From Xanthobacteraceae bacterium (GTDB lineage Bacteria > Pseudomonadota > Alphaproteobacteria > Rhizobiales > Xanthobacteraceae): DNA of 64,000 bases. The notes under the pieces are model-generated. The model had not been told where the DNA came from. It searched no databases and saw nothing but the letters and a program-made list of their open reading frames with translations. This document shows positions 28,326-57,942 of this stretch, in pieces (within the stretch, counting starts at the first letter, position 1; the number at the start of each line of letters is the position of its first letter). Made by a program: the position numbers and the translations under genes. The stretch lies in NCBI GenBank assembly GCA_004297465.1, contig SCUB01000011.1, positions 1 through 64,000 on the forward strand, in the 5' to 3' direction.

Positions 28326-28723
28326 AAGGCATCCCGTTGAACCTGCCAGATCACCGAAAACTGCCTCAACAGATTCTCAAGCTGCAGTCCCGTCGGCTGG
28401 CGGCCACCCAGGATCGCCTCGACGATCTCCGGCGCCAGCAACGTCAGCCGCAGCACGCGTCCTACATAGGACTCGTTGATCTTCTCGGCTTTGGCGATCT
28501 CACGAATGGTTTGGTACTGGCCGGTTTCCAGCATTTCGCGCCAGCGAAACGCCCGGGCGATCGCCTTGACCATGGCGTTGTCGATGTGGCGGCGAACGGG
28601 TGCCGTCGTCACGTTCGTGCCATCGGGCACGATGACGAGCTTCCGGCCTCCACGGCGGCGGATCGTAATCGGCACGTGCACCGTGACGGTCCGTCCGTCG
28701 GCGTCGAGATGGGGCTTGCTCAT
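28310..28723 (-). CDS. serine-recombinase-associated HTH protein
   Basis: This is a 137-residue protein found beside large serine recombinases in alphaproteobacterial phages and islands. It has a basic N terminus (VHVPITIRRRGGRKLVIVPDG), a helix-turn-helix-like centre (TIREIAKAEKINESYVGRVLRLTLLAPE), and ILGGRQPTGLQLENLLRQF before a W..QR.. ending. It probably binds DNA and assists or regulates recombination. Its last codons (FRLIT) are read from the tRNA-fMet fragment, so the natural C terminus was likely changed by integration. The start ATG at 28723 overlaps the recombinase stop by one base. Confidence 0.75.
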   Translation of the reverse strand: MSKPHLDADGRTVTVHVPITIRRRGGRKLVIVPDGTNVTTAPVRRHIDNAMVKAIARAFRWREMLETGQYQTIREIAKAEKINESYVGRVLRLTLLAPEIVEAILGGRQPTGLQLENLLRQFSVIWQVQRDAFRLIT

Positions 28724-30039
28724 CAGGCTACCCTCCGCAGTTCCGGCCTGACAGCGCGTAGATCGGCGACCAGATTCGTCAGCCCCTCGGTTCGCAACCG
28801 GATGTCCGCCCCTTCCGTGCTGATGTCGACACGCTCGACAAGCAATTGCACGATCCGCGTCTGCTCAGCCGGGAACAGCTCGTCCCAGAGCGGATCGAGC
28901 CGTACCAACGCCTCATGGACATCAGTCTCGCTGATGCCATCCATCGACTGCCGTGCGGTGCGCCATGTGCGGACGATGAATTCCGGGGACCGTAACAAAC
29001 CGCGCAACTGGTCGATGACCGCGCTCTCAATCTCGGTCGCCGGCACGCGCCGCACAGTGCATGAGGCGGCGTCACGTTTCAGCAGGTCGGTCGACACATA
29101 GTAGCGATAGAGCTTGCCGCCCTTGCGCGTGTGGGTGGGCGTCATGGACCGCCCAGTCGGTCCAAAGATCAGGCCTTTCAGCAGAGCGGGTGTCTGATTC
29201 CGCGTCCGGGCGGCACGCCGCCTCGGGCTTTCGGCGAGGACACTGTGGACCCTGTCCCACAGTGATTGACTGACGATGGCCGAGTGCTCGCCCGGATATG
29301 CAGTGCCCTTGTGCACCGCCTGACCGATATAGACGCGGTTGTTCAGGAGCTTATAGACATAGCCCTTGTCGACAAGCTTGCCTTGCTTGCCCGTCACGCC
29401 TTCAGCACGCAGCGACCGCACCAGCACGGTGGCCGAGCCAATCCTGGCAAAGCGCTCGAAGATCATCCGGACCTTCTGCGCTTCCGCCTCGTTCACAACG
29501 AGCTTGCGGTCCTTGACGTCATAGCCAAGCGGCACGAAGCCACCCATCCACATCCCCTTCTTGCGCGAGGCGGCGAACTTGTCGCGAATGCGCTCGCCGA
29601 TGACCTCGCGTTCGAACTGCGCAAAACTGAGCAGGATGTTCAAGGTGAGACGTCCCATCGACGTGGTGGTGTTGAACGACTGTGTGACGCTGACAAAGGT
29701 GACGTTGTTACGGTCAAACACCTCGACGAGCTTCGCGAAATCCATCAGCGCGCGGCTCAGCCGGTCAATCTTGTAGACAACGATCACATCTATGCGCTGG
29801 GCCTCGATGTCGGCCAGGAGACGCTTTAGTGCTGGGCGTTCCAGCGTTGCCCCGGAAATCCCGCCGTCGTCATAGCGGTCGGGCACCAGCACCCAGCCCT
29901 CCGGCTTCTGGCTCGCGATATAGGCTTCACAAGCCTCGCGCTGGGCGTCGAGCGAGTTGAATTCCTGCTCCAGGCCTTCTTCGCTCGATTTGCGGGTATA
30001 CGCCGCGCAGCGCAGCTTGCGGATCACCGGCGTCTTCAT
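28723..30039 (-). CDS. large serine recombinase / site-specific integrase
   Basis: This 438-residue recombinase has a resolvase catalytic domain at residues 8-150 (AAYTRKSSEEGL with the nucleophilic Ser, DRYDDGGISGATLERPAL, VYKIDRLSRAL, SFAQFEREVIGERIRDK). It is followed by the recombinase domain (GFVPLGYDVKDRKLVVNEAEA) and a zinc-ribbon-like segment, which here has lost most cysteines. It cuts and rejoins DNA at short att sites to integrate or excise elements. It lies in a three-gene block with a DUF2924 gene and the HTH protein, next to the tRNA-fMet scar. The protein appears full-length and could still be active. Confidence 0.92.
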   Translation of the reverse strand: MKTPVIRKLRCAAYTRKSSEEGLEQEFNSLDAQREACEAYIASQKPEGWVLVPDRYDDGGISGATLERPALKRLLADIEAQRIDVIVVYKIDRLSRALMDFAKLVEVFDRNNVTFVSVTQSFNTTTSMGRLTLNILLSFAQFEREVIGERIRDKFAASRKKGMWMGGFVPLGYDVKDRKLVVNEAEAQKVRMIFERFARIGSATVLVRSLRAEGVTGKQGKLVDKGYVYKLLNNRVYIGQAVHKGTAYPGEHSAIVSQSLWDRVHSVLAESPRRRAARTRNQTPALLKGLIFGPTGRSMTPTHTRKGGKLYRYYVSTDLLKRDAASCTVRRVPATEIESAVIDQLRGLLRSPEFIVRTWRTARQSMDGISETDVHEALVRLDPLWDELFPAEQTRIVQLLVERVDISTEGADIRLRTEGLTNLVADLRAVRPELRRVA

Positions 30040-31584: not shown

Positions 31585-34500
31585 CTAGATCACTGACGCG
31601 GACGCGGCGGTCTCTCGTTTCGATCCCTGTGAGGCCATCATAGGCGCGCCCACGTGGAGTCTTGCCAGGAGGTCGATCGCCTTCGCCCTGGCCGTGGCCG
31701 CGCCCTCCATCTTGATAGATTCGTAACCGCGGATTTCGTCCGGCAGGTTCAGGAGTTCGGCCACTACGTGTTTGTCCGCCGACGCGAGATCGCGGGCGCA
31801 CGTTTCGACAAGGCTTATGTACCAGGCCACCAGGCTCCGCTCCTCGCGTCTGACCGGATTCGCCATGAACGGATCAAGAATGGTTCCGCGCAATTTCCTC
31901 AGCCGGGCAAGCAGCCGAAGCGGGATCCTGAACCATGATCCGAACTCAACCTTGCGGTTGAGCCCGAAGATGCGGGCGAAGGGCGGCTGCAGATTGAACG
32001 CCATCGCTTCAAAGCCAGGAAAGAGCGTCCTGACACGCGCTTCAAAGACTGGATCCGTAAGGAGTCGCGCGACCTCGTATTCATCCTTATAGGCCATGAT
32101 CTTGTGCAGGTTGCGGATGACGAGCGAGGTCAGATGGCCGCCATCCCCTGGAAAGGCCGCCCTGTCGGCGGCGGAAAAATCGGCGACGGCACGCGCGAAG
32201 CGCATCGCGTAACGTTCATCCTTGTAGGCCACAAGATCAGCTACGCGATTTCGCGCGATCTGTTTTGCCTCGGGCGGCAGTCCTTCAAGCGCGGTCGTCA
32301 CCCGATCGATTTGTGCGGCAATGGCGGAGGTTTCGCGTTTGGCAAGGCCATCGATGCGATCCGCCAGTGTGCCATACTCAACTTTCAGCATCCGTGCGAA
32401 CCGTTCCGGGTCGTGATGGAACAGCCGGCCGGCGCGGAAGGCCATGATATTCACCTTGGCGGCGGTGCCGTTCAGCGTGATCGAGCGTTCGATGCTGGCG
32501 GCGGAGATCGGCAGCAATCCCGCCTGATACGCGACCCCGATCACCACCATGTTGGTCATCATGTAATCACCAAAAATGCGCTCGGCTGCAGTGCGGGCCG
32601 GGATGCAGAGTTTCCGTCCTGGGCGAATGCGGCCGGCGATGACGTCCGTCATCGCGTCTGAATCGACAATTGCGTTGATGTTGCGGATCATTTCGCCGGT
32701 CGGCAGAATATCCGTATTGATAACGGCGGCTGTTCGCTCGCTGTCGCAGACCGCGAGATTGGTCTTGTCTGTCGCCGCCAGCAGGTCGAAGGCGAGATAG
32801 AGATCGGCATTTGCCGCTGTGACCTTGTTGCTGACGATAGGTTCGCCGGCCTTCGACAGAATAATGCTCGAGAGCACCGCGCCCCATTTCTGGGCCGCGC
32901 CCGTCTGGTCGAAGCTCTTCACTTCATGGCCGTCCATGGCGGCTGCCTGGGCCAGGATTGCGTTGACGGTGATCACGCCCGTCCCGCCAACGCCCGGGAT
33001 GTAGATGTGAAAGGGCCGGTCCAGGGTCGGCAATGCAGGCTCTAGCATGTCCGCCGGAAGATCCGGCATCGGGGGCCTTGCGAAACTGGTTCCGGCCTTG
33101 ACGGTGACGCTTACAAAGGAAGGACATTCGCCCTCCACGCATGAGCGATCCTGGTTACAGGAAGATTGATGAATTTGCGTCTTCAGTCCGAATTGGGTTG
33201 GTGTTTTCTGAAGCGACATGCAATTGGCCTTTCGGCCGCAATCGCCGCAGTTGTCGCAAACATCCTCGTTGACGATTGTGAATTTTGTCGTCGGCGCCAC
33301 GCGACCGCGTTTCTGGCGCCGCCGCCGTTCGTTCGCGCAATCACCGTCATAGATCAGGACCGTGACGCCCTTGATCCGTTCGAGTTCGGCCATGGCGGCC
33401 TGAACCTCGTGCGGCTCGCGCAAGCTGACGTTCGCGGGCAACGGCAAGCCGGCATACGCATGCTTATTCCTGGCAACGAGAATGGTTCGGACAACGCCAT
33501 CGGCCGCCAGGCGATGCAGGAGGCTGACGACGGGTGCCTGGTTGACTGAACTCTGACCTCCCGTGTTCGCAATGACGCCATTGTAAAGAATGCGGAACGT
33601 CATCGCCTGGCCTGTCGAGACCGCGAAGCGGATATTCTGCAAGCTCGAATGGAAGAGCGAGCCGTCTCCGACGTTTTGCACGATGTGTGGCCGTGTGGTG
33701 TACGGCGACAGGCCAATCCACGGCATTCCTTCGCCGCCGAACTGGGTCATGGCCTCGATGCGGCGCTCCGGTTGCTCCATCAGCGCGGCAAAGACATGGC
33801 AGCCGGGTGCTCCCCAGGCCATCTGGCCGGGGGCAAGCCTGGTCGAGACGTTGTGCGGACAGCCAGAGCAATAATTCGGTGTTCGCCGCCGGAGCGGAGG
33901 AACGGTCATGGCGCGCACCGTCGCGATGCGACGAAGACGGGCCTCCGCGGCCTCGGGAAGGGATAGGTGCCGCTTAAGCTCACCCCCGAGAAGCTCGGTC
34001 ACGATGTCGACGTCCATGCCGCCGGCGACAGGAAAGAGCGGTTGTCCGTCGAGGTCAATCTTGCCGACGACCCGAACGGCACCGAACCCGCACAAAGCCG
34101 CGCCGACCTGTCGTTCAAGGAAGTCGCGCTTCTCCTCCACGACGATGACGTGGTCGAGTCCTTTCGCGAATTGTCGGAAGAATTCGGGCGATGAGGGGCA
34201 TAGCAGGCCGACCTTTGCCAGGCGGATTCCGGCGGCCTTGAGGCCGTCATCGTCAAAACCAAGATTGATAAGGGCCTGGCGGGTATCGGCGAAGCTCTTG
34301 CCGGCCGATATGATGCCGATCCGGTTGCGTTCGCCCATGACCACGATGCGGTTGAGATTGTTGGCTTCGGCGTAGGCGACCACCGCGCGATGACGCTCGG
34401 CGTAGAGCCGCTGTTCAGTCGCGACATTGAGGACGGGGAAGAACGTGAAGTCGGCACTCTTTGAGAACGGCCGTCCATCGATCGTGACGTCGGGCAAGAC

Positions 34501-35193
34501 GATGGGCGTGGAGTCCTCGCTGATTTGCACCACCTCGCCGCCGTCGCAGAGCGGGGCGACGAGCTTCAGCGCGACCCAGCATCCGCTGAAACGCGACAGC
34601 GCGACGGCATGCAGTCCGAACTCGATGAACTCGGTGATGGAGGCCGGGTACAGCACCGGGACGCCGTAGTGCTCGAAAGCGAATTCCTGCTGGTAGGGAA
34701 CGCTGGAGGATTTCGCCTCGTGATCCTCTCCGCTGAGGATGACGACCGCTCCGTTCCGACTGGTTCCGCCGAAATTGCCATGCTTGATCGCGTCGCTTGA
34801 GCGGTCGATGCCCGGACCCTTGCCGTACCAGAACCCCACGACGCCATCGACGTCCGGGTGCGGGTGGCTGTCGAGCATTTGCGTGCCGATGAGCGCGGAG
34901 ATGGCGAGTTCTTCGTTCTGCCCCGGCACATGCTTGATGCCATGGCGGTCGAGTGTGGCGGCAGCTCGTTTCAATGCGATATCGTAGCCGCCAAGCGGCG
35001 ATCCGGGATAGCCGGTGATGAAGGCCTTCGTGCGCAGGCCTGCCGCCGCGTCGCGTCGCATCTGCTCGATGGGCAGGCGGATGAGCGCCTGAGTTCCGCT
35101 GAGCAGGACGCGGCCGTTCCTCGTCTCATATCGGGCTTCATCCAGAGACGGCTCGCCGTCCCGCTTCAGCAATTTCGTGGTCGGCGTGGTCAT
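31585..35193 (-). CDS. indolepyruvate ferredoxin oxidoreductase, alpha-beta fusion
   Basis: This is a 1202-residue 2-oxoacid:ferredoxin oxidoreductase of the fused IorA-IorB type. The N-terminal pyrimidine-binding half has GYPGSPLGGYD near residue 60. The TPP-binding part has MPWIGLSPYT and GDGSLFHSSLQNIRFAV near 510. An Fe-S segment NEDVCDNCGDCGRKANC lies near 645. The gamma-like C-terminal half begins at VGGTGVITVNAILAQAA near 733 and carries SFDQTGAAQKWG. It converts arylpyruvates or other 2-oxoacids with CoA to acyl-CoA, CO2 and reduced ferredoxin. It is divergent from the molybdoenzyme operon and could supply arylacetyl-CoA or act on the arylglyoxylate product. The exact substrate is not deducible. 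Confidence 0.92.
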   Translation of the reverse strand: MTTPTTKLLKRDGEPSLDEARYETRNGRVLLSGTQALIRLPIEQMRRDAAAGLRTKAFITGYPGSPLGGYDIALKRAAATLDRHGIKHVPGQNEELAISALIGTQMLDSHPHPDVDGVVGFWYGKGPGIDRSSDAIKHGNFGGTSRNGAVVILSGEDHEAKSSSVPYQQEFAFEHYGVPVLYPASITEFIEFGLHAVALSRFSGCWVALKLVAPLCDGGEVVQISEDSTPIVLPDVTIDGRPFSKSADFTFFPVLNVATEQRLYAERHRAVVAYAEANNLNRIVVMGERNRIGIISAGKSFADTRQALINLGFDDDGLKAAGIRLAKVGLLCPSSPEFFRQFAKGLDHVIVVEEKRDFLERQVGAALCGFGAVRVVGKIDLDGQPLFPVAGGMDVDIVTELLGGELKRHLSLPEAAEARLRRIATVRAMTVPPLRRRTPNYCSGCPHNVSTRLAPGQMAWGAPGCHVFAALMEQPERRIEAMTQFGGEGMPWIGLSPYTTRPHIVQNVGDGSLFHSSLQNIRFAVSTGQAMTFRILYNGVIANTGGQSSVNQAPVVSLLHRLAADGVVRTILVARNKHAYAGLPLPANVSLREPHEVQAAMAELERIKGVTVLIYDGDCANERRRRQKRGRVAPTTKFTIVNEDVCDNCGDCGRKANCMSLQKTPTQFGLKTQIHQSSCNQDRSCVEGECPSFVSVTVKAGTSFARPPMPDLPADMLEPALPTLDRPFHIYIPGVGGTGVITVNAILAQAAAMDGHEVKSFDQTGAAQKWGAVLSSIILSKAGEPIVSNKVTAANADLYLAFDLLAATDKTNLAVCDSERTAAVINTDILPTGEMIRNINAIVDSDAMTDVIAGRIRPGRKLCIPARTAAERIFGDYMMTNMVVIGVAYQAGLLPISAASIERSITLNGTAAKVNIMAFRAGRLFHHDPERFARMLKVEYGTLADRIDGLAKRETSAIAAQIDRVTTALEGLPPEAKQIARNRVADLVAYKDERYAMRFARAVADFSAADRAAFPGDGGHLTSLVIRNLHKIMAYKDEYEVARLLTDPVFEARVRTLFPGFEAMAFNLQPPFARIFGLNRKVEFGSWFRIPLRLLARLRKLRGTILDPFMANPVRREERSLVAWYISLVETCARDLASADKHVVAELLNLPDEIRGYESIKMEGAATARAKAIDLLARLHVGAPMMASQGSKRETAASASVI

Positions 35194-35430
35194 GCCCTCT
35201 CCCCCTCAGACGTCGGCTTTTCATCAGGCGCGACTTTGCCGAACTTTGAATGCGCGGAACCTTGGAATTGGCTCCAGGCGGCAGCCGTCCTGCCGACGAC
35301 CGGAAATGCATTGTGGCGGTTCCGCTGCCTGCCAGTGCCTTTGGTTTTCGGCCTCCCCGTGTTCCGGGTAAGGCTTTGAAATGTTTATTGTTGCTAGTGC
35401 CTTGCAGCTGCATCGCGGGTTATTTTTGCC

Positions 35431-35487
35431 TTGACAAAAATTTAATGGTGTTATGAACTGCATAATAGATTACAAAATGCATAACAC
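35431..35487 (+). promoter_or_regulatory. promoter/operator region of the molybdoenzyme operon
   Basis: A TTGACA box lies at 35431-35436 with a poor -10 candidate (TATGAA, 35452). Around it, GTGTTATG (35448-35455) and CATAACAC (35480-35487) form an inverted pair, and GCATAA repeats at 35460 and 35479. It lies 28 bp before the MoaD-like start, a suitable place for the IclR regulator encoded at 42752. The rest of the 322-bp divergent gap (35194-35515) holds no gene. Confidence 0.5.
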
Positions 35488-35515
35488 AAGAGTTTAAGCA
35501 AGAGGGGGCGCGCTC

Positions 35516-35893
35516 ATGACGCCGCATCACTCAAGCGAAGTGATCGCCGAAGGCGCGCAGCAAAGTGGGCAAGCGGGTGCGTCCATCAATCTCACGATCA
35601 GCTTCATGGGTGTCATCGCCACCATCACGGGGGAGCGGGAACTCACGCTCGAACTCGGCAGGCAACAAACCTTGCGTGACCTGCTTTACGAACTGGAACG
35701 GCGCTATGGCTCCGAATTCGGAGCGCGGATCTTCCGGAACGCTCAACCGCCCCGTCGCATGCAGATGTGCACGCGCATCTTCATAAATAAGAATCTGATC
35801 GATGAGACGGCGCTGGATCAGCCGATCCCGCTCGCATCAAAGAACTCACCCGAAGTTCTAATCTACTTCCTGCCGGCAGCCTGTGGAGGATGA
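35516..35893 (+). CDS. MoaD/ThiS-like ubiquitin-fold protein
   Basis: This 125-residue protein has a ~25-residue polar N-terminal extension and a beta-grasp fold (INLTISFMGVIATITGEREL, then ELGRQQTLRDLLYELERRYG). It ends in ACGG, so the C terminus carries the Gly-Gly needed for adenylation and thiocarboxylation. MoaD-type proteins give sulfur to molybdopterin. It is the first gene of the operon and runs into the molybdoenzyme gene (stop at 35893, next start at 35901). A cognate E1-like enzyme is encoded at 43621. A dedicated cofactor-maturation role for the neighbouring enzyme is a reasonable inference. Confidence 0.82.
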   Translation: MTPHHSSEVIAEGAQQSGQAGASINLTISFMGVIATITGERELTLELGRQQTLRDLLYELERRYGSEFGARIFRNAQPPRRMQMCTRIFINKNLIDETALDQPIPLASKNSPEVLIYFLPAACGG

Positions 35894-35900
35894 GACCATC

Positions 35901-38516
35901 ATGAATATCCAGCAGAAGATATCTCCGGACGTTCGCGACGATGTATGGATCCCATCAGCCTGCACCATCTGCTACGGCGGATGCTCGATACTTGCACATC
36001 GTGTTGACGGCACGGTCATCAAGATCGAGGGCAATCCCAAGAGTCCGAATGGCGCGGGAAAGCTTTGCGCCAAAGGCGTATCCGGAATCATGATTCTGTA
36101 TGATCCGAATCGGGTCAGCACGCCGCTGCGTCGAACCAATCCCAACAAGGGCATCGGCATAGACCCCGGCTGGAAGCCGATCAGTTGGGAAGAGGCGCTG
36201 AGCGAGACCATCGCCAAGCTGGGCAAGATCAGGCAGGAAGACCCCCGGCAACTGGTGCTTCAGATCACGACGACGCTCACGCCCTCGTCGCTTTCGATCT
36301 TCTTCCCGTTTGGGTGGGCCTTCGGCACGCCCAACATGTGGGTGGCCGGTGGTGGTGTCCATTGCGGCAATGGAGCGCATGCGGGCGGAGGTGTGACGCA
36401 CGCTTCGTGGTCGATTGTGCCTGATTTTCATCATTGCAACTACGCCATCTATTTCGGTGCGTCGAAGGGGCATGGCGCGGGACATGCGGCGACATCCAAC
36501 ATCACGCTCGCCGCCGATGCGCGCGATCGCGGCATGCGCATGGTGGTCGTTGACCCGATGTGTAATTTTGCTGCGGCCAAGGCGAACGAATGGGTGCCTA
36601 TTCGTGTCGGCACCGACGCAGCGCTCGCGCTGGCAATGTGCAACTGCCTGGTCAATGAACTCGGAATTGTCGATCGGGAATATCTGCGCGATCGCACAAA
36701 CGGCATTTATCTGACGCGGCAGGACGGCAAATATGCACGCGATGAAGCAACCGGCGAGCCGCTCGTTTGGAGCGAGAAAATCGGCGGGCCGGTAACTCAT
36801 AATGCCCCGGATGCGAAGGGCGCCGCGCTGGAAGGTACGTTCCAGGTCAATGGGGAAGAGTGCCAGACCGGGTTCACCCGGCTCAAGGAGCATCTGAAGA
36901 AATACTCGCCCGAGTACGCGGAACAGATCACCAGAATTTCGGCCGCGACCATCCGTCGCCTGTCCAAGGAGTTCGGCGAGGCGGCGCGGGTCGGCAGCAC
37001 CATCGTGATCGACGGCAAGACCCTTCCTTACCGTCCGGCGTCGGCCATCTTCTTCCGAGGCGCCCAGGGTCACAAGAATTCGATGTACAACTGCTTTGCG
37101 ATCGACCTTCTCAACCACATCGTCGGAGCGGCGGATGTCGTCGGCGGCACGCTGGGCTTCAACCCGGTCTGCCATGGCCACCCGGATACCCAGCGCCCAC
37201 GCTATTCGCCGCGTCCCGATCGTGACGGTCTGATGGCGGTCGGCACCTGGATGCTGCCGCACGTCCCGTATCCTCCGGCTGATCCTCGCAAGCCGGACTC
37301 GATCGGCTTCATCGAGATGTTTCCGCTCTCCCATGTCTCTCCGCTGATGGCGTCCGCGGATCAGGAGCATTGGTGGCAACAGTTCGACCTGAAATATCGT
37401 CCGAAGATGATGATCAACTACGGCGCCAATTCAATAATGAGCGTCGGCAACAAGGAGACAGTGGCGGAAAGCCTCAAGCGCTACGACTTCATCGTTTCCT
37501 TCGATCTGTTCCTGAACGAGTTCTCCGATTTCGCGGACATCATCTTTCCCGATGCGAGCTATCTCGAAGTGCTCGATCCCAGGCCGAACTTTCCGTTCAT
37601 CTTCAATCACCCGGCGGGTATGGGCGAGTGGGGCTGGCCAATTCGCCAACCCGTCGTCGAGCCTACCGGCGAACGGCGCAGCGCGCGCGACGTGCTTCTA
37701 GAAATCGCCTACGAGCTCGGTCTCGGAGCCGAGATGAACCTCGCCGTCAATAGCTTCTACGGGCTGGATGGCGAGCAGATGCTCGACCCCGCGCAAAGAT
37801 ACGATGTCGAGCAGATCGCCGACCACGAGCTCAGGCACAAGTTCGGCAATGATCGTGGACTCGAATGGTTCAAGGAGAATGGCGTTATCACCTGGCCCAA
37901 GAAGGTGGAGGAGGTCTATTGGCGGACCTTCGTTGATGTCCGCATTCCGATCTATCACGAATACCTGATCGAGTTGGGCGAAAAGACCGCGGGCCTCTGC
38001 CAGCAGGGCAACATGTCGTTCGATATGCGCTACTACGGTCCTCTGCCGGAATGGCTGCCGTGTCCGTCGCATGAGGTCGCGGACTCCGAATTCGATCTCT
38101 ATGCCTTTTATTACCGTGACGCCATTCAGGCCAATAGCTTCACGATGCAGAATCCCTGGATCGACGAGACCGCGCGCATGGATCCGTATTCCTACCGGAT
38201 CGCCATCAACGGCGCGACGGCGCGCAAGAAAGGCCTCCACGACAACGAAGTCGTGTGGATCGAGTCAGTAAAGGGACGGCGCGTCGCTGGCCGCATCAAG
38301 GTGACCGAAGCCATCCATCCGGAGGCAATCGGCATTGCCGCCTGCGCTGGACACTGGAGCAAGCATCAGCCCATCGCCAAGGGGAAGGGCGTGTTCTTCA
38401 ATGAATTGCTTGAGGTCGATTTCGAGCACACCAGTCCGGTCAATCTGAACATGGATCTGTGCTCCAAGGTGAAGGTCTACCGGCACGAGGATCAGAGCAA
38501 GGCGTCGTTTGATTAA
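35901..38516 (+). CDS. DMSO-reductase-family molybdoenzyme, PadB-like
   Basis: This is an 871-residue catalytic subunit. It has an N-terminal [4Fe-4S] site (CTICYGGC near residue 21, then LCAKG near 56), and VHCGNGAHAGGGVTH near 154 places a cysteine at the usual Mo/W-ligand position. The C-terminal molybdopterin-dinucleotide-binding domain starts near 725. No Tat signal is present, so it acts in the cytoplasm, as for phenylacetyl-CoA:acceptor oxidoreductase. The gene set that follows (hydrolase, four-cluster ferredoxin, NrfD-like anchor) matches PadBCD-like complexes, which oxidise the alpha carbon of phenylacetyl-CoA. The ATG at 35901 was preferred over GTG 35883, which overlaps the previous gene. 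Other members of this branch do non-redox chemistry, so the reaction is not certain. Confidence 0.82.
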   Translation: MNIQQKISPDVRDDVWIPSACTICYGGCSILAHRVDGTVIKIEGNPKSPNGAGKLCAKGVSGIMILYDPNRVSTPLRRTNPNKGIGIDPGWKPISWEEALSETIAKLGKIRQEDPRQLVLQITTTLTPSSLSIFFPFGWAFGTPNMWVAGGGVHCGNGAHAGGGVTHASWSIVPDFHHCNYAIYFGASKGHGAGHAATSNITLAADARDRGMRMVVVDPMCNFAAAKANEWVPIRVGTDAALALAMCNCLVNELGIVDREYLRDRTNGIYLTRQDGKYARDEATGEPLVWSEKIGGPVTHNAPDAKGAALEGTFQVNGEECQTGFTRLKEHLKKYSPEYAEQITRISAATIRRLSKEFGEAARVGSTIVIDGKTLPYRPASAIFFRGAQGHKNSMYNCFAIDLLNHIVGAADVVGGTLGFNPVCHGHPDTQRPRYSPRPDRDGLMAVGTWMLPHVPYPPADPRKPDSIGFIEMFPLSHVSPLMASADQEHWWQQFDLKYRPKMMINYGANSIMSVGNKETVAESLKRYDFIVSFDLFLNEFSDFADIIFPDASYLEVLDPRPNFPFIFNHPAGMGEWGWPIRQPVVEPTGERRSARDVLLEIAYELGLGAEMNLAVNSFYGLDGEQMLDPAQRYDVEQIADHELRHKFGNDRGLEWFKENGVITWPKKVEEVYWRTFVDVRIPIYHEYLIELGEKTAGLCQQGNMSFDMRYYGPLPEWLPCPSHEVADSEFDLYAFYYRDAIQANSFTMQNPWIDETARMDPYSYRIAINGATARKKGLHDNEVVWIESVKGRRVAGRIKVTEAIHPEAIGIAACAGHWSKHQPIAKGKGVFFNELLEVDFEHTSPVNLNMDLCSKVKVYRHEDQSKASFD

Positions 38517-38555
38517 GACGCCGGTGGTCGGATCGCGTGACGAGGGGGAAACCTC

Positions 38556-39317
38556 ATGACTGGTGCTTCATCCATCTGGAGCGAGCGCGGCGGTGACAAG
38601 GGGCCGTGCCTGGTTCTTTTGCACGGGCTGGGCGCCAATGGCGCGGTGTGGGATGGCATGAAGCCGATCCTCGACCGCCATTGGCCGGGACGCTGGCTCA
38701 TCCCCGATTTCAGGGGGCATGGACGTTCGCTCCATCGTGCTCCCTACGGCATCGGCATTCACGCGGCGGATGTCGCGTCGCTTCTTGGCCAGGACGAGGA
38801 AATCACGATTGTCGGCCACTCGATGGGAGGCGTGATCGCCATCGCGCTCGCATCGGGCATGTTCGGCGTTCAAGTCAGGCGAGTGGTGGCGGTTGGCGTG
38901 AAAACCGAATGGACGAACGACGATTTCGCCAGGAGTCAGGCCATCGCTCAGGCACCTGCCAAACTCTTCGATTCCCGCGATGAAGCGATCGAGCGCTATG
39001 TGCGTGTTTCAGGCTTGAAGGGGGTGGTCGAGCCCACCTCTTCGGTCGCGGCGGCGGGAATTGTCGAACAGCAGGGCAAGTTCAGGTTGGCGGCCGATCC
39101 GCGGACGTTCGCTCTCGGCCAGCCGGATTTTTCAATGATTGCCAAATCGGCTCTGGCGCCCGTGCGTCTTCTCTGCGGCGACGGTGACAAGATCGCCAGT
39201 CCGGAAGGCATGAAACGATTGGGCGATGAAGTTACCACGTTGTCCGGCTACGGACACAACCTTCATGTTGAGGCGCCGGATGTCCTGTGGAGTTCCATCG
39301 CGGACGGATTGGCATGA
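38556..39317 (+). CDS. alpha/beta hydrolase
   Basis: This 253-residue hydrolase has the oxyanion motif LLHGLGANGAVW near residue 22, the nucleophile elbow GHSMGG near 89, an acid in LLCGDGDKI near 206 and the catalytic histidine in GYGHNLHVEAP near 232. There is no signal peptide, so it is cytoplasmic. It lies between the molybdoenzyme and its Fe-S subunit, which suggests that it acts on the oxidoreductase product, for example as a thioesterase on an arylglyoxylyl-CoA. Esterase or C-C hydrolase activity cannot be excluded. Confidence 0.85.
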   Translation: MTGASSIWSERGGDKGPCLVLLHGLGANGAVWDGMKPILDRHWPGRWLIPDFRGHGRSLHRAPYGIGIHAADVASLLGQDEEITIVGHSMGGVIAIALASGMFGVQVRRVVAVGVKTEWTNDDFARSQAIAQAPAKLFDSRDEAIERYVRVSGLKGVVEPTSSVAAAGIVEQQGKFRLAADPRTFALGQPDFSMIAKSALAPVRLLCGDGDKIASPEGMKRLGDEVTTLSGYGHNLHVEAPDVLWSSIADGLA

Positions 39318-39366
39318 TTAATCGCGCAAGTAACTGGCTGCAGCTAAACGGGGTGGAGGATCGATC

Positions 39367-39972
39367 ATGAGATTGGGAATGGTAATCGATTTGCGGCGTT
39401 GCGTGGGCTGCTATGGCTGCCAGCACGTCTGCAAAGCCGAGAACGGCACGCCGCCCGGCATGTTCTTCGGTCGCGTGATCAAACGCGAGGAGGGATCCTA
39501 TCCGACGACCACGCAGTTATTCTTGCCTGTGCTCTGCAATCATTGCACGGACGCGCCTTGTGTTGACGTCTGCCCGACAGAAGCCAGCCATTACGCCGAG
39601 CATGGCATTGTCGATATCGATCATGACAAATGCGTAGGCTGTCATTCCTGCATGGTCGCCTGTCCATATACGAACCGCTATTTCAACGATGAGCGGCGCA
39701 ATTATTTTGGTGATTCAGGCCCCACTCCCTACGAAGAAGCCAGGGTGGCGCGTCATCCGGAAGGCGTGGTGATGAAATGCAACTTCTGCAGGCCCCGATT
39801 GGCGGAAGGCAAGCTTCCCGCGTGTGTCGACAACTGCGCATCCAATGCGCGCACGTTCGGAGATCTTGATGATCCCAACAGCGAAGTGTCGCGGCTGATC
39901 AAGGAGCGCGGCGGCTTCACGCTCCACCCGGAGGCCGGCACCAGTCCCAACGTATATTATCTCTCGACGTGA
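39367..39972 (+). CDS. four-cluster ferredoxin-like subunit, PadC/DmsB-like
   Basis: This 201-residue electron-transfer subunit has four cysteine groups: CVGCYGCQHVC near residue 13, CNHCTDAPCVDVC near 58, CVGCHSCMVAC near 91, and CNFCRPRL with CVDNC near 138-155. These would hold four [4Fe-4S] clusters as in DmsB, NrfC and PadC. There is no signal peptide, in agreement with a cytoplasmic complex. It should pass electrons from the molybdoenzyme to the membrane subunit encoded 7 bp downstream, and from there to the quinone pool. Confidence 0.93.
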   Translation: MRLGMVIDLRRCVGCYGCQHVCKAENGTPPGMFFGRVIKREEGSYPTTTQLFLPVLCNHCTDAPCVDVCPTEASHYAEHGIVDIDHDKCVGCHSCMVACPYTNRYFNDERRNYFGDSGPTPYEEARVARHPEGVVMKCNFCRPRLAEGKLPACVDNCASNARTFGDLDDPNSEVSRLIKERGGFTLHPEAGTSPNVYYLST

Positions 39973-39979
39973 GGCGAAG

Positions 39980-40891
39980 ATGAACAACCAGCGCTATAAT
40001 CAGTTGATCAATGATCTGCGCAGCGACTACCGCCCTCAGCGTGAATGGGGCGAGGGGCGCGGCATTCTCATGGTGATCGGCCATTTTCTTGTTGGCGTTG
40101 CCGGGGGCACCTGGCTCATGTCGTCCATTTACGGCGTGACGGCGGGTCTGGTGGTTGCCTTCATTCTGGGCATCTTGGGCGGCCTCGTTCACCTCCTGTT
40201 TCTTGGCAACCCCAAGAATGCCCTCAAGATGATGCGGCACGTCCGCACCTCCTGGGTTTCGCGCGGATTCGTTGGGCTTAGTCTGTTTCTCGTCGGCGGT
40301 GGTGTTTACCTGACGCTGCTCATGGTGTCGGCCGATACCGGCGGCTGGATGGCTTTGTTCTGGATCGCAAAGGTGATGGCAGCGGCAGGCATGGTAACCA
40401 TCATCGGTTACATGGGGTTTTGCTACACGGCGTCGAAGGCAATTCCCTTCTGGCATTCACCGCTGCATCCCGCCATCTACATAGCCTTCGCCGTGCGCGG
40501 CGGCATCGCGGCGCTGCTCGTTATCGGTGCCTTCCTCGGCGTGGCGGCCGACGATTGGCTGCTCAAACTCTGGCTGATCGTCACGGCCATCGTCACCTTG
40601 TTCTATGTCCTGGAGTTGCAGGGCGCGATGACGAGCGGCAACGTGGCGGCCCGCCGCTCTGTCGGTGATCTTCTGTCCGGACGGCTGGCGCTGATATTTT
40701 ATGGCGGAACCCTGCTTCTGGGGCTGATTATTCCTATTCTGCTGCTGACGGTGATGGCGAACATTTCGCTAACGGTCATGGCCATTGTCGGTCTGGCGTC
40801 AGTCGCGGGCGACTTTTTCATGAAACTGACGACCGTGCGGGCCGGTGTTTATTTGCCGCTGGTCATCTCCGCGCGCCGTAAACATGCCTGA
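39980..40891 (+). CDS. NrfD/DmsC-like membrane anchor, PadD-like
   Basis: This is a 303-residue integral membrane protein with about eight hydrophobic helices. The opening WGEGRGILMVIGHFLVGVAGG and the conserved FLGNPKNALKMMRHVRTSWVSRG loop are typical of NrfD-type quinone-interacting subunits. It anchors the molybdoenzyme-ferredoxin pair to the inner membrane and exchanges electrons with quinone. It is the last gene of the operon before a 253-bp gap. No haem-ligand pattern is obvious, as expected for NrfD. Confidence 0.88.
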   Translation: MNNQRYNQLINDLRSDYRPQREWGEGRGILMVIGHFLVGVAGGTWLMSSIYGVTAGLVVAFILGILGGLVHLLFLGNPKNALKMMRHVRTSWVSRGFVGLSLFLVGGGVYLTLLMVSADTGGWMALFWIAKVMAAAGMVTIIGYMGFCYTASKAIPFWHSPLHPAIYIAFAVRGGIAALLVIGAFLGVAADDWLLKLWLIVTAIVTLFYVLELQGAMTSGNVAARRSVGDLLSGRLALIFYGGTLLLGLIIPILLLTVMANISLTVMAIVGLASVAGDFFMKLTTVRAGVYLPLVISARRKHA

Positions 40892-41144: not shown

Positions 41145-42308
41145 ATGAGCACTTTAACGTTGAGGAAGACAGTTGCCGCTTTGCAGACGATGTTTGTTGC
41201 ATTCCTTGCATTGATTGGCGCGGCCTACGCTCAAGATCCAATTCGTATTGGTTCGTTTCTGTCAGTCACCGGGCCTGCGTCGTTTCTTGGCGAGCCGGAA
41301 TTGAAAACGCTGCAGCTCTATATTGAGAAAACCAATTCAAAGGGCGGCATTCTCGGCCGGAAGTTGGAATTCATCCATTATGATGACGGCGGTGACGCCA
41401 GCAAGGCGAATGGCTTCGTCAAGCGTCTGATCGAATCCGATAAGGTTGACATCATTGTCGGCGGGTCAACGACAGGCACGACGATGGCATCCATACCGTT
41501 GATAGAGAAGGCCGAGATCCCCTTCATATCAATTGCCGGCGGTGTTGTTGTCGTCGAGCCGGTCAAGAAATGGGTCTTCAAGACCCCCGGTTCCGACCGC
41601 CACTCAATTGAACGCCTGATGGTCGATATGAAGAAGAAAGGCATCAAGAATGTCGCGCTGATGGTCGAGACATCTGGGCTGGGGCAGTCAAGCAAGGTTG
41701 AGGCGCACAAAGTAGCGCCCAATTACGGAATTACTTTTACGGCTGAGGAAAGCTACAATCCCAAAGATACGGACATGACGCCTCAGCTTACCAAAATCCG
41801 CAATGCGCCTGGCGTTCAGGCGGTTGCCGTGTTCGGCTTCGGCCAGGGTCCCGCGATCGTCACGAGAAACTACGCGCAGTTAGGCATCAAGCTTCCTCTT
41901 TATCATACGCATGGGGTTGCCTCTCAGGAGTTCGCCAGGCTCACCGATAATGCGAATGAAGGCGTGTTGCTTTCGTCGCCATCATTGCTTGTCGCTGACG
42001 AACTTCCAACCAGCGATCCGCAGAAGGCGGTTCTTCTCGCTTATCGGGATGAATACAGGAAGCGCTACAACGACGATCCGTCGACGTTTGGCGGCTACGC
42101 CTATGACGCCTTAATGCTCGCGCTGGGGGCCATCAACAAGGTGGGTGGCACCAACAAGGAGCAGGTTCGTAATGCGCTGGAGCAAACAAAGAACTACGTC
42201 GGAACCGCCGGCATGGCCAATATGTCAGCGGCCGACCATATGGGTCTAAGCCTGTCCGGCTTCCGTCTTGTTGTTATCAAGCAAGGCAAATTCCGGCTGG
42301 CGCAGTAA
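41145..42308 (+). CDS. LivK-like periplasmic substrate-binding protein (third paralogue)
   Basis: This is a 387-residue type I binding protein with a signal peptide (ALQTMFVAFLALIGAAYA) and the same subfamily marks as the two proteins of the liv operon: IGSFLSVTGPASFLGEPE, VDIIVGGSTTGTTMASIPL and NYVGTAGMANMSAADHMGL. No permease or ATPase gene is near, so it may feed the LivHMGF importer at 1.5-5.5 kb. Its position after the PadBCD-like operon and before the IclR gene suggests uptake of an aromatic acid used by that pathway. It has its own leader and terminator, so it is probably a single-gene unit. Confidence 0.9.
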   Translation: MSTLTLRKTVAALQTMFVAFLALIGAAYAQDPIRIGSFLSVTGPASFLGEPELKTLQLYIEKTNSKGGILGRKLEFIHYDDGGDASKANGFVKRLIESDKVDIIVGGSTTGTTMASIPLIEKAEIPFISIAGGVVVVEPVKKWVFKTPGSDRHSIERLMVDMKKKGIKNVALMVETSGLGQSSKVEAHKVAPNYGITFTAEESYNPKDTDMTPQLTKIRNAPGVQAVAVFGFGQGPAIVTRNYAQLGIKLPLYHTHGVASQEFARLTDNANEGVLLSSPSLLVADELPTSDPQKAVLLAYRDEYRKRYNDDPSTFGGYAYDALMLALGAINKVGGTNKEQVRNALEQTKNYVGTAGMANMSAADHMGLSLSGFRLVVIKQGKFRLAQ

Positions 42309-42751: not shown

Positions 42752-43549
42752 ATGCGTCTAAAGGAAAAATCGAACGAGGATGACGTTAAGTCAAAATTCG
42801 GCGTTCAATCGGTCGAGATCGGATTGCATGTTCTGGAGGTGCTCGCGCAGGCCTATCGACCGATGGGGCTTCGAGAGTTGGCGGCGCTATTGGAGATGCC
42901 GCCTGCGAAAGTGCACCGTTATCTGGTGAGCCTCATCCGGGCCGGCATGGTTGAGCAATCCGGCGCAGGCGGCCGTTATGGATTGGGTCCAATGGCGGTG
43001 ACCCTGGGCCTGTCGGCGCTTAAGCAGCTCGATATTATGCGGATTTCCGAGACTGCAATCGCTGAACTGCGCGATCGGATCGATCACATTGTCCTGCTGG
43101 CGATATGGGGGGATGTCGGGCCAACGGTCATTCGTTGGGAAGACAGTCATCGGCCCGTTGCGGTGAATGTTCGGATTGGTTCGATCCTGCAGACCCTCGA
43201 CTCGGCGACGGGATTGATTTTTGCCGCCTATCTTCCTCGCCATGTTACCGCAACAAGAATAGCCGAAGAAATTGGAGCACGCACTCCGGAAGAGGTGGAA
43301 AAACTTCTTGCCGAAGTCCGTGATCGCGGAATGTCCCGGGTCCGCGGCCATCAATTGGCGTCCATAAATGCCCTAAGCGTTCCTGTATTCGATCATACTG
43401 GAAAAGTTGTCGCCGCCATCACCGCGTTGGGGCCGGAGCGCACCATCAATGTTGACTGGAATGGAAATATTGCGAAGGAATTGAGGATCGTCGCACAACA
43501 GATTTCCCTGCGACTGGGGTGGGCGGCGCCCAAGACGAGCAATAAATAA
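42752..43549 (+). CDS. IclR family transcriptional regulator
   Basis: This is a 265-residue regulator. The N-terminal winged helix (residues 16-80: GLHVLEVLAQAYRPMGLREL, then PPAKVHRYLVSLIRAGMVEQ) is followed by the IclR effector-binding domain with INALSVPVFDHTGKVVAAIT near 210. IclR proteins control aromatic and aliphatic acid catabolism and respond to a pathway metabolite. It probably controls the divergent 2-oxoacid oxidoreductase and molybdoenzyme units, whose shared intergenic region has dyads at 35448-35487. The effector could be the arylacetate or its CoA ester, but that is inference. Confidence 0.92.
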   Translation: MRLKEKSNEDDVKSKFGVQSVEIGLHVLEVLAQAYRPMGLRELAALLEMPPAKVHRYLVSLIRAGMVEQSGAGGRYGLGPMAVTLGLSALKQLDIMRISETAIAELRDRIDHIVLLAIWGDVGPTVIRWEDSHRPVAVNVRIGSILQTLDSATGLIFAAYLPRHVTATRIAEEIGARTPEEVEKLLAEVRDRGMSRVRGHQLASINALSVPVFDHTGKVVAAITALGPERTINVDWNGNIAKELRIVAQQISLRLGWAAPKTSNK

Positions 43550-43620: not shown

Positions 43621-44421
43621 ATGCTCAATCCCGAGGAATTGGAGCGCTATGCCCGCCACATCGTGCTGCGCGAGGTAGGAGGGCCCGGTCAGGCCGCCTT
43701 GAAGAAGGCGCGCGTGCTGGTGGTTGGCGCGGGCGGACTTGGCGCGCCGGTCCTGATGTATCTCGCGGCGGCGGGTATTGGTACGCTCGGGATAATTGAT
43801 CATGACGAGGTGTCGCTGTCGAATTTGCAGCGGCAGGTCATCCATGCGACCGCTGATGTCGGGCGCTCAAAAGTGGAAAGCGCCGCCGAGAAGATCCGCG
43901 CGCTCAATCCTCATGTGACTGTGCATGTGTTGATGCAAAGATTGAATGCCGCCAACGCGCTGAGTGTTCTTGACGCCTATGATATCGTCGTTGACGGGTC
44001 GGATAATTTTCCCACACGCTATCTGGTCTCGGACGCCTGTTTCCTCGCTCGCAAGGTGCTGGTCACGGGCGCTCTAGGCGCTTTTGACGGAACATTGACC
44101 ACCATCCGGGCGCACGAGCAGGACGCAGAAGGCAAGGTCAATCCAACTTACCGCTGTCTCTTTCCCGAGCCGCCGCCACCCGGGTCCGTGCCGGCCTGTG
44201 TCGAAGCCGGCGTGCTTGGCGCGCTTGCGGGAACCATGGGGTCTCTCATGGCGCTGGAGGTCATTCGTGAAATCACTGGTTTCGGCAATGGCCTTGTCGG
44301 GCGGCTGCTTGTATTCGATGCGCGCGCGATGAAGTTCGATATTTTGCATTATGAACGTGACCCTCGAAATCCACTCAATGGGGATAGACCGGATACCCTG
44401 GATTTGTCGGGACATTTGTAA
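43621..44421 (+). CDS. MoeB/ThiF-like E1 activating enzyme
   Basis: The 266-residue protein has the E1 signature: nucleotide motif VVGAGGLGAPV near residue 37, NLQRQVIH (Arg finger) near 75, and the acid in VDGSDNFPTRYL near 124. MoeB/ThiF enzymes adenylate the C-terminal Gly-Gly of MoaD/ThiS. Of the two CxxC pairs typical of MoeB, only single cysteines are visible (YRCLFPEPPPPG, VPACVEAG), so the zinc site is reduced as in some HesA/ThiF forms. The likely partner is the MoaD-like protein at 35516. It is 71 bp downstream of the IclR gene and may be co-transcribed with it. Confidence 0.9.
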   Translation: MLNPEELERYARHIVLREVGGPGQAALKKARVLVVGAGGLGAPVLMYLAAAGIGTLGIIDHDEVSLSNLQRQVIHATADVGRSKVESAAEKIRALNPHVTVHVLMQRLNAANALSVLDAYDIVVDGSDNFPTRYLVSDACFLARKVLVTGALGAFDGTLTTIRAHEQDAEGKVNPTYRCLFPEPPPPGSVPACVEAGVLGALAGTMGSLMALEVIREITGFGNGLVGRLLVFDARAMKFDILHYERDPRNPLNGDRPDTLDLSGHL

Positions 44422-44921: not shown

Positions 44922-45470
44922 ATGAACATTAAGTTCAACAGGGGAAGAGGGATGCAACAACACACGATACTTCTTGTCACCATCATCATCATGGCGTGCG
45001 TCGCCTTGCCGTTTCTCTTTGCCGCGTCCGCAGCAAAGGATAAGGGACCGCAGGTCGGCTGGCTCGGTTACGGTGCGCAACGATCCCTGGTCGCTGCGAT
45101 GCTGGTCGTGGGCGTCGCCGTCACGGGAATATCCCTCGCGGTGTGGCCGCATAGCGTTTCCGCGGGACCGGCGCGCCAGGTGGTCAATGTCACCGGCCAT
45201 CAATGGTACTGGGAGATCGAGGACGTTCGGTTGGTGACCGGAAGTCCGGTCGTATTCAATGTTCATACCGAGGACGTCAATCATGGCCTGGGCGTTTATG
45301 ACGCCGATTTCCGGTTGATTGTCCAGATCCAGGCGATGCCCGGATATCTCAACCAGGTTCAATACACGTTCGAGAAGCCGGGCAAGTACAGGATTCTTTG
45401 CATGGAATTTTGCGGCGTCGCCCATCACGACATGACATCTGAATTCACCGTATCGGCGGCCAAGAGCTGA
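44922..45470 (+). CDS. haem-copper reductase subunit II with CuA centre
   Basis: This is a 182-residue membrane-anchored subunit with two N-terminal hydrophobic segments (about 12-35 and 54-76) and a cupredoxin domain. The complete CuA ligand set is present: H121, C160, E162, C164, H168/H169 and M171 (CMEFCGVAHHDM). CuA takes electrons from cytochrome c. The start at 44922 gives a short basic leader; an ATG at 44952 is an alternative. The gene order here (subunit II, subunit I, SCO, membrane protein) resembles the norSY-senC-orf1 cluster known from ammonia oxidisers, so it is read as part of an sNOR-type NO reductase. Confidence 0.85.
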   Translation: MNIKFNRGRGMQQHTILLVTIIIMACVALPFLFAASAAKDKGPQVGWLGYGAQRSLVAAMLVVGVAVTGISLAVWPHSVSAGPARQVVNVTGHQWYWEIEDVRLVTGSPVVFNVHTEDVNHGLGVYDADFRLIVQIQAMPGYLNQVQYTFEKPGKYRILCMEFCGVAHHDMTSEFTVSAAKS

Positions 45471-45482
45471 GGGAGCATAGTG

Positions 45483-46937
45483 ATGGCAAATGTTGCGACG
45501 ACCAATAACCAGTCGAAAGAAGCAGATGCGTTATCCAGCGTGGCGCTCCTGCTGGCCGGCGCGGTATTCCTCCTGATGATGATTGCCGGCCTGCTCATGC
45601 GCAGCGCGCAGGGCAAGTTGATCGATCTCGATCCGACCCTGTTCTATCAGCTCATGACCGCGCACGGGGCCGGAATGGTCGGCGCTGCCGCGCTGTCCGG
45701 CGCCGCCATCATGTGGCTCTTTCTTGGCCGGCATGTCTCGCTTAACAAATTGGCGTTCAAGGCTTTCCTGGCCTTGTTCCTGCTCGGCGTCGTGTTGATC
45801 CTCTACTCGATCTTCGTCGGCGGTTTCGGAGGCGGATGGACGTTCCTCTATCCTCTCCCGGCTCATTCCGGCGGCGTCTGGGAGACCGCGGCGGCGGCGA
45901 CATTCCTCGTCGGGTTGCTGCTGGTCGGCGCCGGATTCCTGGTCCTTTACTTCGAAATGGGACGTGCGATCCTCGTACGGTATGGAAACCTTTCCCAGGC
46001 GTTGGCCTGGCCGCTGGTTTTCCGCGGCAAGATGGAAACGGTACCTCCTCCCACGATCGTGGCCTCCACTGTCATCGTGATCTTCAATTCAGTCGGTACG
46101 GTCGTTGGGGCCGCGACGCTTGCCATCAGCCTCATCAATCTTTTCGTTCCGACGTTCGAGATCGACGCCCTGCTGGCGAAGAACATGATCTATTTCTTCG
46201 GCCATGTTTTCATCAACGCATCGATCTATATGGCGGTGATCGGCGTTTATGAGATCCTTCCGGAATACACTGGCCGGCCATGGAAAGTATCCCGCCCGTT
46301 CGCGATCGGCTGGAGCGCGGTTCTGCTTTTTGTCCTGGCGGTCTATCCCCATCATCTTCTGCAGGACATGGTCATGCCGCCCTGGATGCTGGTCATGGGG
46401 CAGGTCGTGTCGTACCTGAGCGGGCTTCCCATTCTGGCCGTCACCGCGTTTGCCATGCTTGGCTATGTTAGCGGCTCCGGCATGAAATGGGATCTTGCAT
46501 CCGCGCTTCTCTTCCTGGGCGTGTTCGGCTGGTCGGTCGGCGTCGTCCCCGCCATCATCGACGGGATCATTTCGATCAACAAGGTGATGCACAATACCCT
46601 GTGGGTGCCCGGCCATTTTCATACGTACTTGCTGGTCGGTGAGGTCGCGATGTCATTCGGCGTCATGGCCTGGATTGTGCGCTCGAAGCAGGATGTTGCG
46701 TTGTTCAGCGGCCTGCAGCGCGCAGTATTCTGGACCTACGTCGTGGGGGCCCTGGGATTCGCGATGGTCTTCCTGACTTCCGGCGCCGCGAGCGTGCCGC
46801 GTCGTTGGGCCGTGCATGCTCCCGAATGGATCATGCAGGACCGCATCGCGACACTGCTCGGCATCGTCACGCTCCTGAGCGCGGTGTATTTCGTGACGCG
46901 CTTCGGCTCGCGGCTGGCCAGCGGAGAGCGGAAATGA
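45483..46937 (+). CDS. haem-copper subunit I, probable sNOR-type nitric oxide reductase
   Basis: This is a 484-residue protein with about twelve membrane helices. Metal ligands are conserved: H61 and H380 for the low-spin haem, H241, H290 and H291 for CuB, and H378 for the active-site haem (GHFHTY). In oxygen reductases of the B type the residue four after the first CuB histidine is the cross-linked tyrosine (GHPIVY). Here the sequence is GHVFIN, with Asn245; NO reductases carry Glu or other residues at this place, and I recall Asn for sNOR-type enzymes. The reaction would be 2 NO to N2O. The ATG at 45483 follows GAGGGAG. A microaerobic oxidase remains possible. Confidence 0.8.
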   Translation: MANVATTNNQSKEADALSSVALLLAGAVFLLMMIAGLLMRSAQGKLIDLDPTLFYQLMTAHGAGMVGAAALSGAAIMWLFLGRHVSLNKLAFKAFLALFLLGVVLILYSIFVGGFGGGWTFLYPLPAHSGGVWETAAAATFLVGLLLVGAGFLVLYFEMGRAILVRYGNLSQALAWPLVFRGKMETVPPPTIVASTVIVIFNSVGTVVGAATLAISLINLFVPTFEIDALLAKNMIYFFGHVFINASIYMAVIGVYEILPEYTGRPWKVSRPFAIGWSAVLLFVLAVYPHHLLQDMVMPPWMLVMGQVVSYLSGLPILAVTAFAMLGYVSGSGMKWDLASALLFLGVFGWSVGVVPAIIDGIISINKVMHNTLWVPGHFHTYLLVGEVAMSFGVMAWIVRSKQDVALFSGLQRAVFWTYVVGALGFAMVFLTSGAASVPRRWAVHAPEWIMQDRIATLLGIVTLLSAVYFVTRFGSRLASGERK

Positions 46938-55119: not shown

Positions 55120-55126
55120 CTAATGC

Positions 55127-57930: not shown

Positions 57931-57942
57931 CCGGAGGTGGCC

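Follow-up and report, generated by a model that had tools for sequence, protein, structure and literature searches.

A run of genes in a 64,000-nucleotide stretch of contig SCUB01000011.1 from a Xanthobacteraceae bacterium (the whole stretch is called the window below) encodes a real and conserved module paralogous to the PadBCD system, which oxidizes phenylacetyl-coenzyme A (CoA), together with its own fused oxidoreductase of the indolepyruvate:ferredoxin type (IOR). The module comprises a molybdenum (Mo) catalytic subunit, A; an electron-transfer subunit, B; a membrane subunit, C; a small MoaD-like protein; an alpha/beta hydrolase; and an IclR-type regulator, with the IOR gene facing the other way. 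From sequence, its function is read here as a parallel alpha-oxidation pathway, most likely for an arylacetyl-CoA other than PadB's phenylacetyl-CoA, with the IOR acting after the Mo enzyme; this reading has about an even chance of being right. PadBCD alpha-oxidation has been described for denitrifiers, for example Thauera and Aromatoleum. The present module was not found described among the matches listed in literature searches, subscription papers being mostly outside their reach. The original prediction, made from the letters of the window, had named a PadBCD-like set, a hydrolase and an IOR as an arylacetate pathway; the named genes are open and correctly placed, with the hydrolase between A and B and the IOR divergent.

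The relation to PadB turns on subunit A. As A exceeds no NCBIfam cut-off (its top match is PhsA, at 235.9 against 694 bits), the label 'PadBCD-like' required a tree. The window's genome (G000; G-numbers denote genomes, L-numbers fetched loci) has a second Mo-subunit gene, at C17:91388-94165, 31% identical to A. In G837, G838 and G841, relatives of this second gene have a PadI gene that passes its cut-off (NF045766) within ~5 kb, in pad operons that read FlK-type thioesterase, PadB, PadC, PadD, subunits of a 2-oxoacid:ferredoxin oxidoreductase (OFOR), PadI and PaaK; the second gene is therefore the true PadB. In a tree of 78 rows (quick method, SH-aLRT supports, long branches flagged by the tree tool), the PadB rows, 14 in number, group as a single clade (100); A falls in a separate clade of 56 rows (96), inside a core clade of nine (100). 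This rules out A as PadB itself. As a true PadB gene is also present besides A in all nine genomes of the core set defined below, the module runs in parallel with PadB as a paralogous system.

The likeness to PadBCD is one of architecture. Both have Mo, iron-sulfur (FeS) and NrfD-type membrane subunits on the cytoplasmic side, with no twin-arginine translocation motif (RR is absent from the first 40 residues of the window's A), and both are linked to a thioesterase (in the module, a putative one) and to a 2-oxoacid enzyme dependent on thiamine diphosphate (ThDP). Cys161 and His166 of A are invariant in 55/55 family rows and 14/14 PadB rows; Cys161 stands at the position of the cysteine ligand to Mo in PadB and aligns with the Mo-cysteine region of ArrA. 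The two also differ: the N-terminal FeS motif of A is CxxCxxxC, against CxxCxxxP in PadB (the third position is Cys in 54 of the 55 family rows, Pro in 12 of the 14 PadB rows), and the module has a MoaD-like gene, an IclR gene, and an alpha/beta hydrolase in place of the FlK-type thioesterase. 'PadBCD-like' thus holds for the three-subunit plan and the missing Tat motif, but not for the clade of A.

Related loci show how well the module is conserved. The A family was sought by a scan of genome contigs, of which the best 80 loci were kept (the core set and the counts over A loci rest on these); genes in related loci come from a crude codon-usage caller, and neighbours were counted by tblastn. 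The core set consists of the window and eight further loci (L057-L063 and L116) in which A is 74-78% identical, nine genomes in all; L130 (A at 67%, split in two frames on a 3.2 kb contig) was excluded. The further loci, at least eight, come from Sterolibacterium, Sulfuritalea, Burkholderiales and other proteobacterial metagenome-assembled genomes (MAGs); the core set spans alpha- and betaproteobacteria. A, B, C, the MoaD-like protein, the dedicated hydrolase and the IclR regulator are kept in 9/9 core loci, in differing gene orders; a set that recurs in every core locus across two proteobacterial classes is more than chance. Outside the window, the MoaD-like protein is 51-57% and the regulator 50-64% identical. 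Homologues of the ABC binding protein (52-63%) lie near A in five of the eight other core genomes, on the adjoining stretch L189 in the case of G838. MoeB was rejected as a conserved part, being present in the window only among the core loci. The module type is rare: among 885 genomes searched, A at 70% or more occurs only in G000 and G048, and a plasmid search with A gave matches at about 25-30% identity only.

A cluster-type IOR occurs in six of the nine core genomes, always within ~12 kb of A; by arithmetic, chance linkage would be expected at ~0.5% per genome. In L187 its gene follows that of C on the same strand, and the two overlap by 4 nt. These copies are 57-61% identical to the window's (in G837, 75% over a contig-end piece), whereas other IORs in the core genomes reach 36-45% over long stretches and up to 50% over short pieces. 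Cluster IORs are like ordinary fused indolepyruvate:ferredoxin oxidoreductases (PRK13030) in domain order, length, and ThDP and FeS motifs, the window's copy keeping the ThDP GDG at 509-511 and the FeS cysteines at 646-690. They differ in forming a monophyletic group of their own (100/100, branch length 1.43), in 26 group-specific residues, at alignment columns where 41 other IORs are conserved, and in being tied to a Mo module. Among 297 genomes of G838's family, the cluster type is found only in G838, G835 and G841, all with A, while a further 21 clear the threshold, at 39-42%; when 399 genomes of G839's order were searched for the IOR, only G839 passed. A phmmer query of the PDB with the IOR found no match.

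The cluster-type IOR was also met outside genomes with A, on two nearly identical plasmids of Variovorax paradoxus (55%). Of the 26 group-specific residues, 24 recur in the Variovorax protein, which is sister to the window's IOR (support 95). Its gene lies 2.3 kb from one for benzoylformate decarboxylase (836.4 bits, cut-off 493), which an aldehyde dehydrogenase gene adjoins; on the other side, ~6 kb away, is a gentisate 1,2-dioxygenase gene (474.5 bits, cut-off 442.1). As the sister enzyme lies near benzoylformate decarboxylase, an arylglyoxylate is favoured as IOR substrate, and this context is the best hint toward it.

The three reactions, their order and the substrate are inferred, as is the ligand of the IclR-type regulator; the proposed course is as follows. 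A-B-C, anchored by its NrfD-type subunit on the cytoplasmic side of the membrane, would oxidize the alpha-CH2 of an acyl-CoA with water to a 2-oxoacyl-CoA, electrons passing via B and C to quinone. The alpha/beta hydrolase would release the free 2-oxoacid, and the cluster IOR would convert arylglyoxylate and CoA to the aroyl-CoA one carbon shorter, with CO2 and reduced ferredoxin. The true pad operons share this logic, with their FlK-type thioesterase, PadB, C, D, OFOR, PadI and PaaK, and were counted in its favour. PMC9765128 describes the Pad route as running from phenylacetyl-CoA to phenylglyoxylyl-CoA, with hydrolysis to phenylglyoxylate and then decarboxylation.

For the middle step, the hydrolase is proposed from its sequence as a putative 2-oxoacyl-CoA thioesterase: all nine sequences compared, one of them an archaeoglobal neighbour of A at 24% identity, keep Ser89 (within GHSMGG) and His234. 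Of 56 fetched PadB-type stretches, which are not all distinct and mostly carry only 1.5 kb of flank, 34 have a gene of the FlK type (fluoroacetyl-CoA thioesterase family) within 6 kb. Such a gene may supply the pad pathway with its phenylglyoxylyl-CoA thioesterase, and the two hydrolytic families may fill the same functional slot; PMC13416013 names a thioesterase among the enzymes relevant to the pathway. Beside true PadB, FlK-type genes were seen at L025:7944-8363 (PF22636) and in L191, L192 and L193.

Several observations weigh against this scheme. The Variovorax context is a single lineage. Cluster-specific changes in the IOR seemed enriched in the ThDP region, and this weakened as more controls were added (from 15/33 to 8/26, p 0.014). 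No CoA ligase lies within the window's cluster. In L063 a PaaK-like gene is present and the IOR is not, which would also fit the IOR as the maker of acyl-CoA. PadI and cluster IOR are both present in G835, G837, G838 and G841; neither is in G048, G836 and G840, so that another enzyme would have to finish the pathway in those three. A split IorAB lies inside the PadI-containing pad operon L191, where its role would be upstream, on an arylpyruvate. Finally, a sister group of A at 54-61% identity may do other chemistry.

The coexistence with PadI bears on the earlier proposal that the fused IOR replaces PadEFGHI (phenylglyoxylate:NAD oxidoreductase). The two would yield the same type of product, aroyl-CoA from arylglyoxylate, but the IOR is a single fused chain of the ferredoxin type without PadI. 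PadI is over cut-off in four of ten genomes (the nine core genomes and G038); G000 is not one of them (best 55 of 700 bits), and both G000 and G839 have the cluster IOR with PadI over cut-off absent. A dedicated IOR is supported in six genomes, but as a simple stand-in for PadEFGHI it was rejected, since four of the nine hold both.

The missing ligase would be explained if the IOR acted before the Mo enzyme: an arylpyruvate from an aromatic amino acid would become arylacetyl-CoA, A-B-C and the hydrolase would make arylglyoxylate, and a different enzyme would finish. IorAB is described as turning phenylpyruvate into phenylacetyl-CoA in Aromatoleum (PMC9765128), and PMC5109826 gives PadJ, PadBCD and PadEFGHI and likewise proposes an IOR for phenylpyruvate; on these accounts either order is possible. 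The ligase of L063, where the IOR is lacking, and the split IorAB next to PadI in L191 point the same way. So does a split IorAB beside PaaK and an FlK-type gene in G000 (L230); this had been entertained as support for a downstream IOR, and the same genes in PadI-containing L191 reverse it. However, ordinary IORs, fused or split, are already present in these genomes, and the cluster IOR is divergent from them; its Variovorax sister lies near benzoylformate decarboxylase; and G000 and G839 have no PadI over cut-off to act downstream. In Chloroflexota, moreover, relatives of A at 38-45% (about 43%) adjoin a four-subunit OFOR and PaaK, and there the ligase makes the acyl-CoA; genes of a Dehalococcoidia single cell have been read likewise, as phenylglyoxylate and phenylacetyl-CoA oxidoreductases (PMC4959651). 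Taken together, the Variovorax context, the fact that neither G000 nor G839 has PadI above its cut-off, the divergence of the IOR and the Chloroflexota loci favour 'after' over 'before', without certainty; the upstream role is the main rival, and is rated unlikely. The placing of the IOR after the Mo enzyme in the original prediction gains from the benzoylformate neighbourhood, although the order itself is read from gene context.

In the L230 region (L230:5973-16718, on C12 of G000), a LysR gene is flanked by two split IorAB sets, of which one is in line with the PaaK-like and FlK-type genes.

A second alternative supposes that A-B-C performs some other Mo chemistry on an aromatic compound or CoA ester (hydroxylation elsewhere, or reduction), the hydrolase and IOR then using a different intermediate. 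The separate clade of A and its third FeS cysteine fit this, as do the leading partial NCBIfam matches (PhsA, QrcB and ArrA) and the mixed contexts, often with UbiD, of the 54-61% sister group. Against it stand the PadB-type subunit set, the Cys161 and His166 common to A and PadB, and the ThDP 2-oxoacid enzymes enriched around the A family. Of the best 80 A loci, 25 include a gene for a fused IOR, an OFOR or a ThDP enzyme of the benzoylformate decarboxylase/acetolactate synthase type, whereas among 20 random 20-kb stretches, drawn from three genomes, one does (p 0.011; two of these controls, L216 and L222, overlap by 13 kb); with the eight core loci set aside, the count is 21 of 72 (p 0.019). 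On balance this alternative seems improbable. The same counts gave no significant excess of PaaK-like genes (8/80 against 0/20) or of UbiD (14/80 against 2/20), and a UbiD link of the sister group was dropped. UbiD-type decarboxylase genes were seen near sister-group A at 11 loci (L069, L078, L085, L086, L088, L090-L092, L100, L102 and L103), and some genomes of that group carry several copies of A.

A was also compared by fold. A model built from 30 aligned sequences (mean pLDDT 88.8) matches ArrA best (Z 32.4), followed by PsrA (32.1), formate dehydrogenases (~30), acetylene hydratase (29.4) and ethylbenzene dehydrogenase (26.7). A shares the superfamily fold of acetylene hydratase and probably that of pyrogallol transhydroxylase; unlike acetylene hydratase, however, it is accompanied by redox subunits B and C, and it has Tyr31 (nearly invariant in the 30 family members) after the second FeS cysteine, in place of an Asp that has a catalytic role in the hydratase. 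A as an acetylene hydratase-like enzyme was rejected on these grounds, and with ArrA and PsrA as nearest folds and Tyr31 in place of Asp, redox chemistry is likelier than hydration for the modelled protein. Grouping with a non-redox family, which had been named as fatal to the predicted pathway, was not seen, acetylene hydratase coming close behind ArrA and PsrA. The comparison of catalytic subunits proposed at the same time was made by tree for PadB, from which A is separate, and by fold for acetylene hydratase. Pyrogallol transhydroxylase, of which the tree contains no sequence, was not among 42 phmmer matches (1e-5) or the top 50 fold matches of A, which excludes nothing.

The neighbours of the core module vary. 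In two Sulfuritalea MAGs, a fusion of a P450 with a ferredoxin-reductase-type domain separates the IOR from B (L059:1938-4385 and L060:5253-7694). Near the IOR at L116:856-1995 is a flavin mononucleotide (FMN)-dependent 2-hydroxyacid dehydrogenase (PF01070; 352 bits to the L-lactate dehydrogenase subfamily, whose cut-off is 376), which could be of the mandelate dehydrogenase type. L063:2053-6216 is a fused HyuA-HyuB frame (caprolactamase/acetophenone carboxylase family, below cut-offs) with a PaaK-like ligase, adjoining the core module that lacks an IOR.

Alpha-oxidation of something other than an arylacetate, such as an alicyclic, terpenoid or steroid side-chain acyl-CoA, would accommodate these varied neighbours (L060, L116, L063) and the core relatives in Sterolibacterium and Sulfuritalea MAGs; PMC7793797 has EdcC, of the IOR family, acting on a steroid 2-oxoacid in Novosphingobium. 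PadB and boxB, however, are in all nine core genomes, which makes these likely aromatic degraders, and the benzoylformate context in Variovorax also speaks for an aryl substrate; a non-aryl substrate is, of the alternatives weighed here, the hardest to credit. In G000 the aroyl-CoA from an arylacetyl-CoA would enter the box pathway, which depends on oxygen: the genome has boxB (as do 10/10 genomes, the nine core genomes and G038) but no benzoyl-CoA reductase A (bcrA), with 0 matches at 1e-20; 7/10 genomes pass the bcrA cut-off. A PaaK-like ligase of G000, at C12:105685, scores 608.7 bits, below the cut-off of 646.3; it adjoins an FlK-type gene (read from sequence, NCBIfam giving no match) and the split IorAB.

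A wider possibility, offered tentatively and more doubtful than the pathway itself, is that the A family is a second Mo alpha-oxidase family, anciently split and found in bacteria and archaea, which parallels PadBCD, shortens CoA-activated aryl acids by one carbon and has exchangeable ThDP partners (fused IOR, four-subunit OFOR, or benzoylformate decarboxylase type), feeding the box pathway in the window organism. If this holds, an oxygen-independent step joined to oxygen-dependent ring opening would make a mixed pathway, suiting a denitrifying life under fluctuating oxygen. The Chloroflexota clusters have A-B-C sets belonging to this wide family, with a 2-oxoacid oxidoreductase; they differ in their four-subunit OFOR and in-cluster ligase. 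Should the module itself work as proposed, a paralogous family otherwise filed as generic molybdopterin oxidoreductase would be a further entry route for arylacetates; annotation of such genes as PadB, PhsA or ArrA would be wrong; and the cluster IOR would extend a family that takes its name from indolepyruvate to arylglyoxylates, a new class of substrate.

Features of the module locus in the window
Feature	Coordinates	Strand	Basis
Fused IOR-type 2-oxoacid:ferredoxin oxidoreductase	31585..35193	-	1202 aa; PRK13030 1186 bits, cut-off 816 (NCBIfam)
Divergent intergenic region, IOR vs moaD-A operon	35194..35515		Gene coordinates
MoaD/ThiS-like small protein	35516..35893	+	C-terminal Gly-Gly; moaD_arch 23.1 bits, below cut-off 49.5
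Catalytic subunit A, Mo-bis-molybdopterin guanine dinucleotide (bis-MGD), DMSO reductase superfamily	35901..38516	+	Pfam PF00384/PF04879/PF01568; open frame from 35883
Alpha/beta hydrolase	38556..39317	+	PF12697
Electron-transfer subunit B, four [4Fe-4S]	39367..39972	+	16 Cys; Fer4 families
Membrane subunit C, NrfD/PsrC type	39980..40891	+	PF03916; 7 hydropathy segments
Branched-chain-type ABC substrate-binding protein	41145..42308	+	PF13458
IclR-type regulator	42752..43549	+	PF09339/PF01614
MoeB/ThiF-type E1 enzyme	43621..44421	+	PRK05690 296.8 bits, cut-off 266

The gaps downstream of A are 39, 49 and 7 nt, so that the genes for the MoaD-like protein, A, the hydrolase, B and C probably form one operon; the intergenic region is likely a shared control region for this operon and the IOR. 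A, which has the three Pfam molybdopterin domains (Molybdopterin, Molybdop_Fe4S4 and Molydop_binding), was listed with a GTG start that overlaps moaD; an ATG just past the moaD stop is, from the sequence, the likelier start. The ABC protein is proposed to serve substrate uptake, and the MoeB-type E1 is a possible partner of the MoaD-like protein.

The module lies inside a stretch of lower G+C at ~15-56 kb (mostly 0.55-0.62, against 0.64-0.69 outside) that follows a tRNA-Ser gene (15264-15353). Genes of island type lie in it, among them those for a C5-DNA methylase and a serine recombinase (28723-30039). The end repeat of the tRNA gene was rejected as an att site, as a script search found no second copy of at least 14 bases. 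MobA and MobB, required for the bis-MGD cofactor, are encoded at 13.7-15.1 kb. Directly after the module (44922-48968) come genes for a small cytochrome oxidase set, with subunits II and I and an SCO-like protein, and for a formate/nitrite transporter; further on is a nos gene cluster (52729-64000) with a Sec-dependent NosZ of the clade II type (861.9 bits, cut-off 625), which makes the window organism a likely nitrous oxide reducer.

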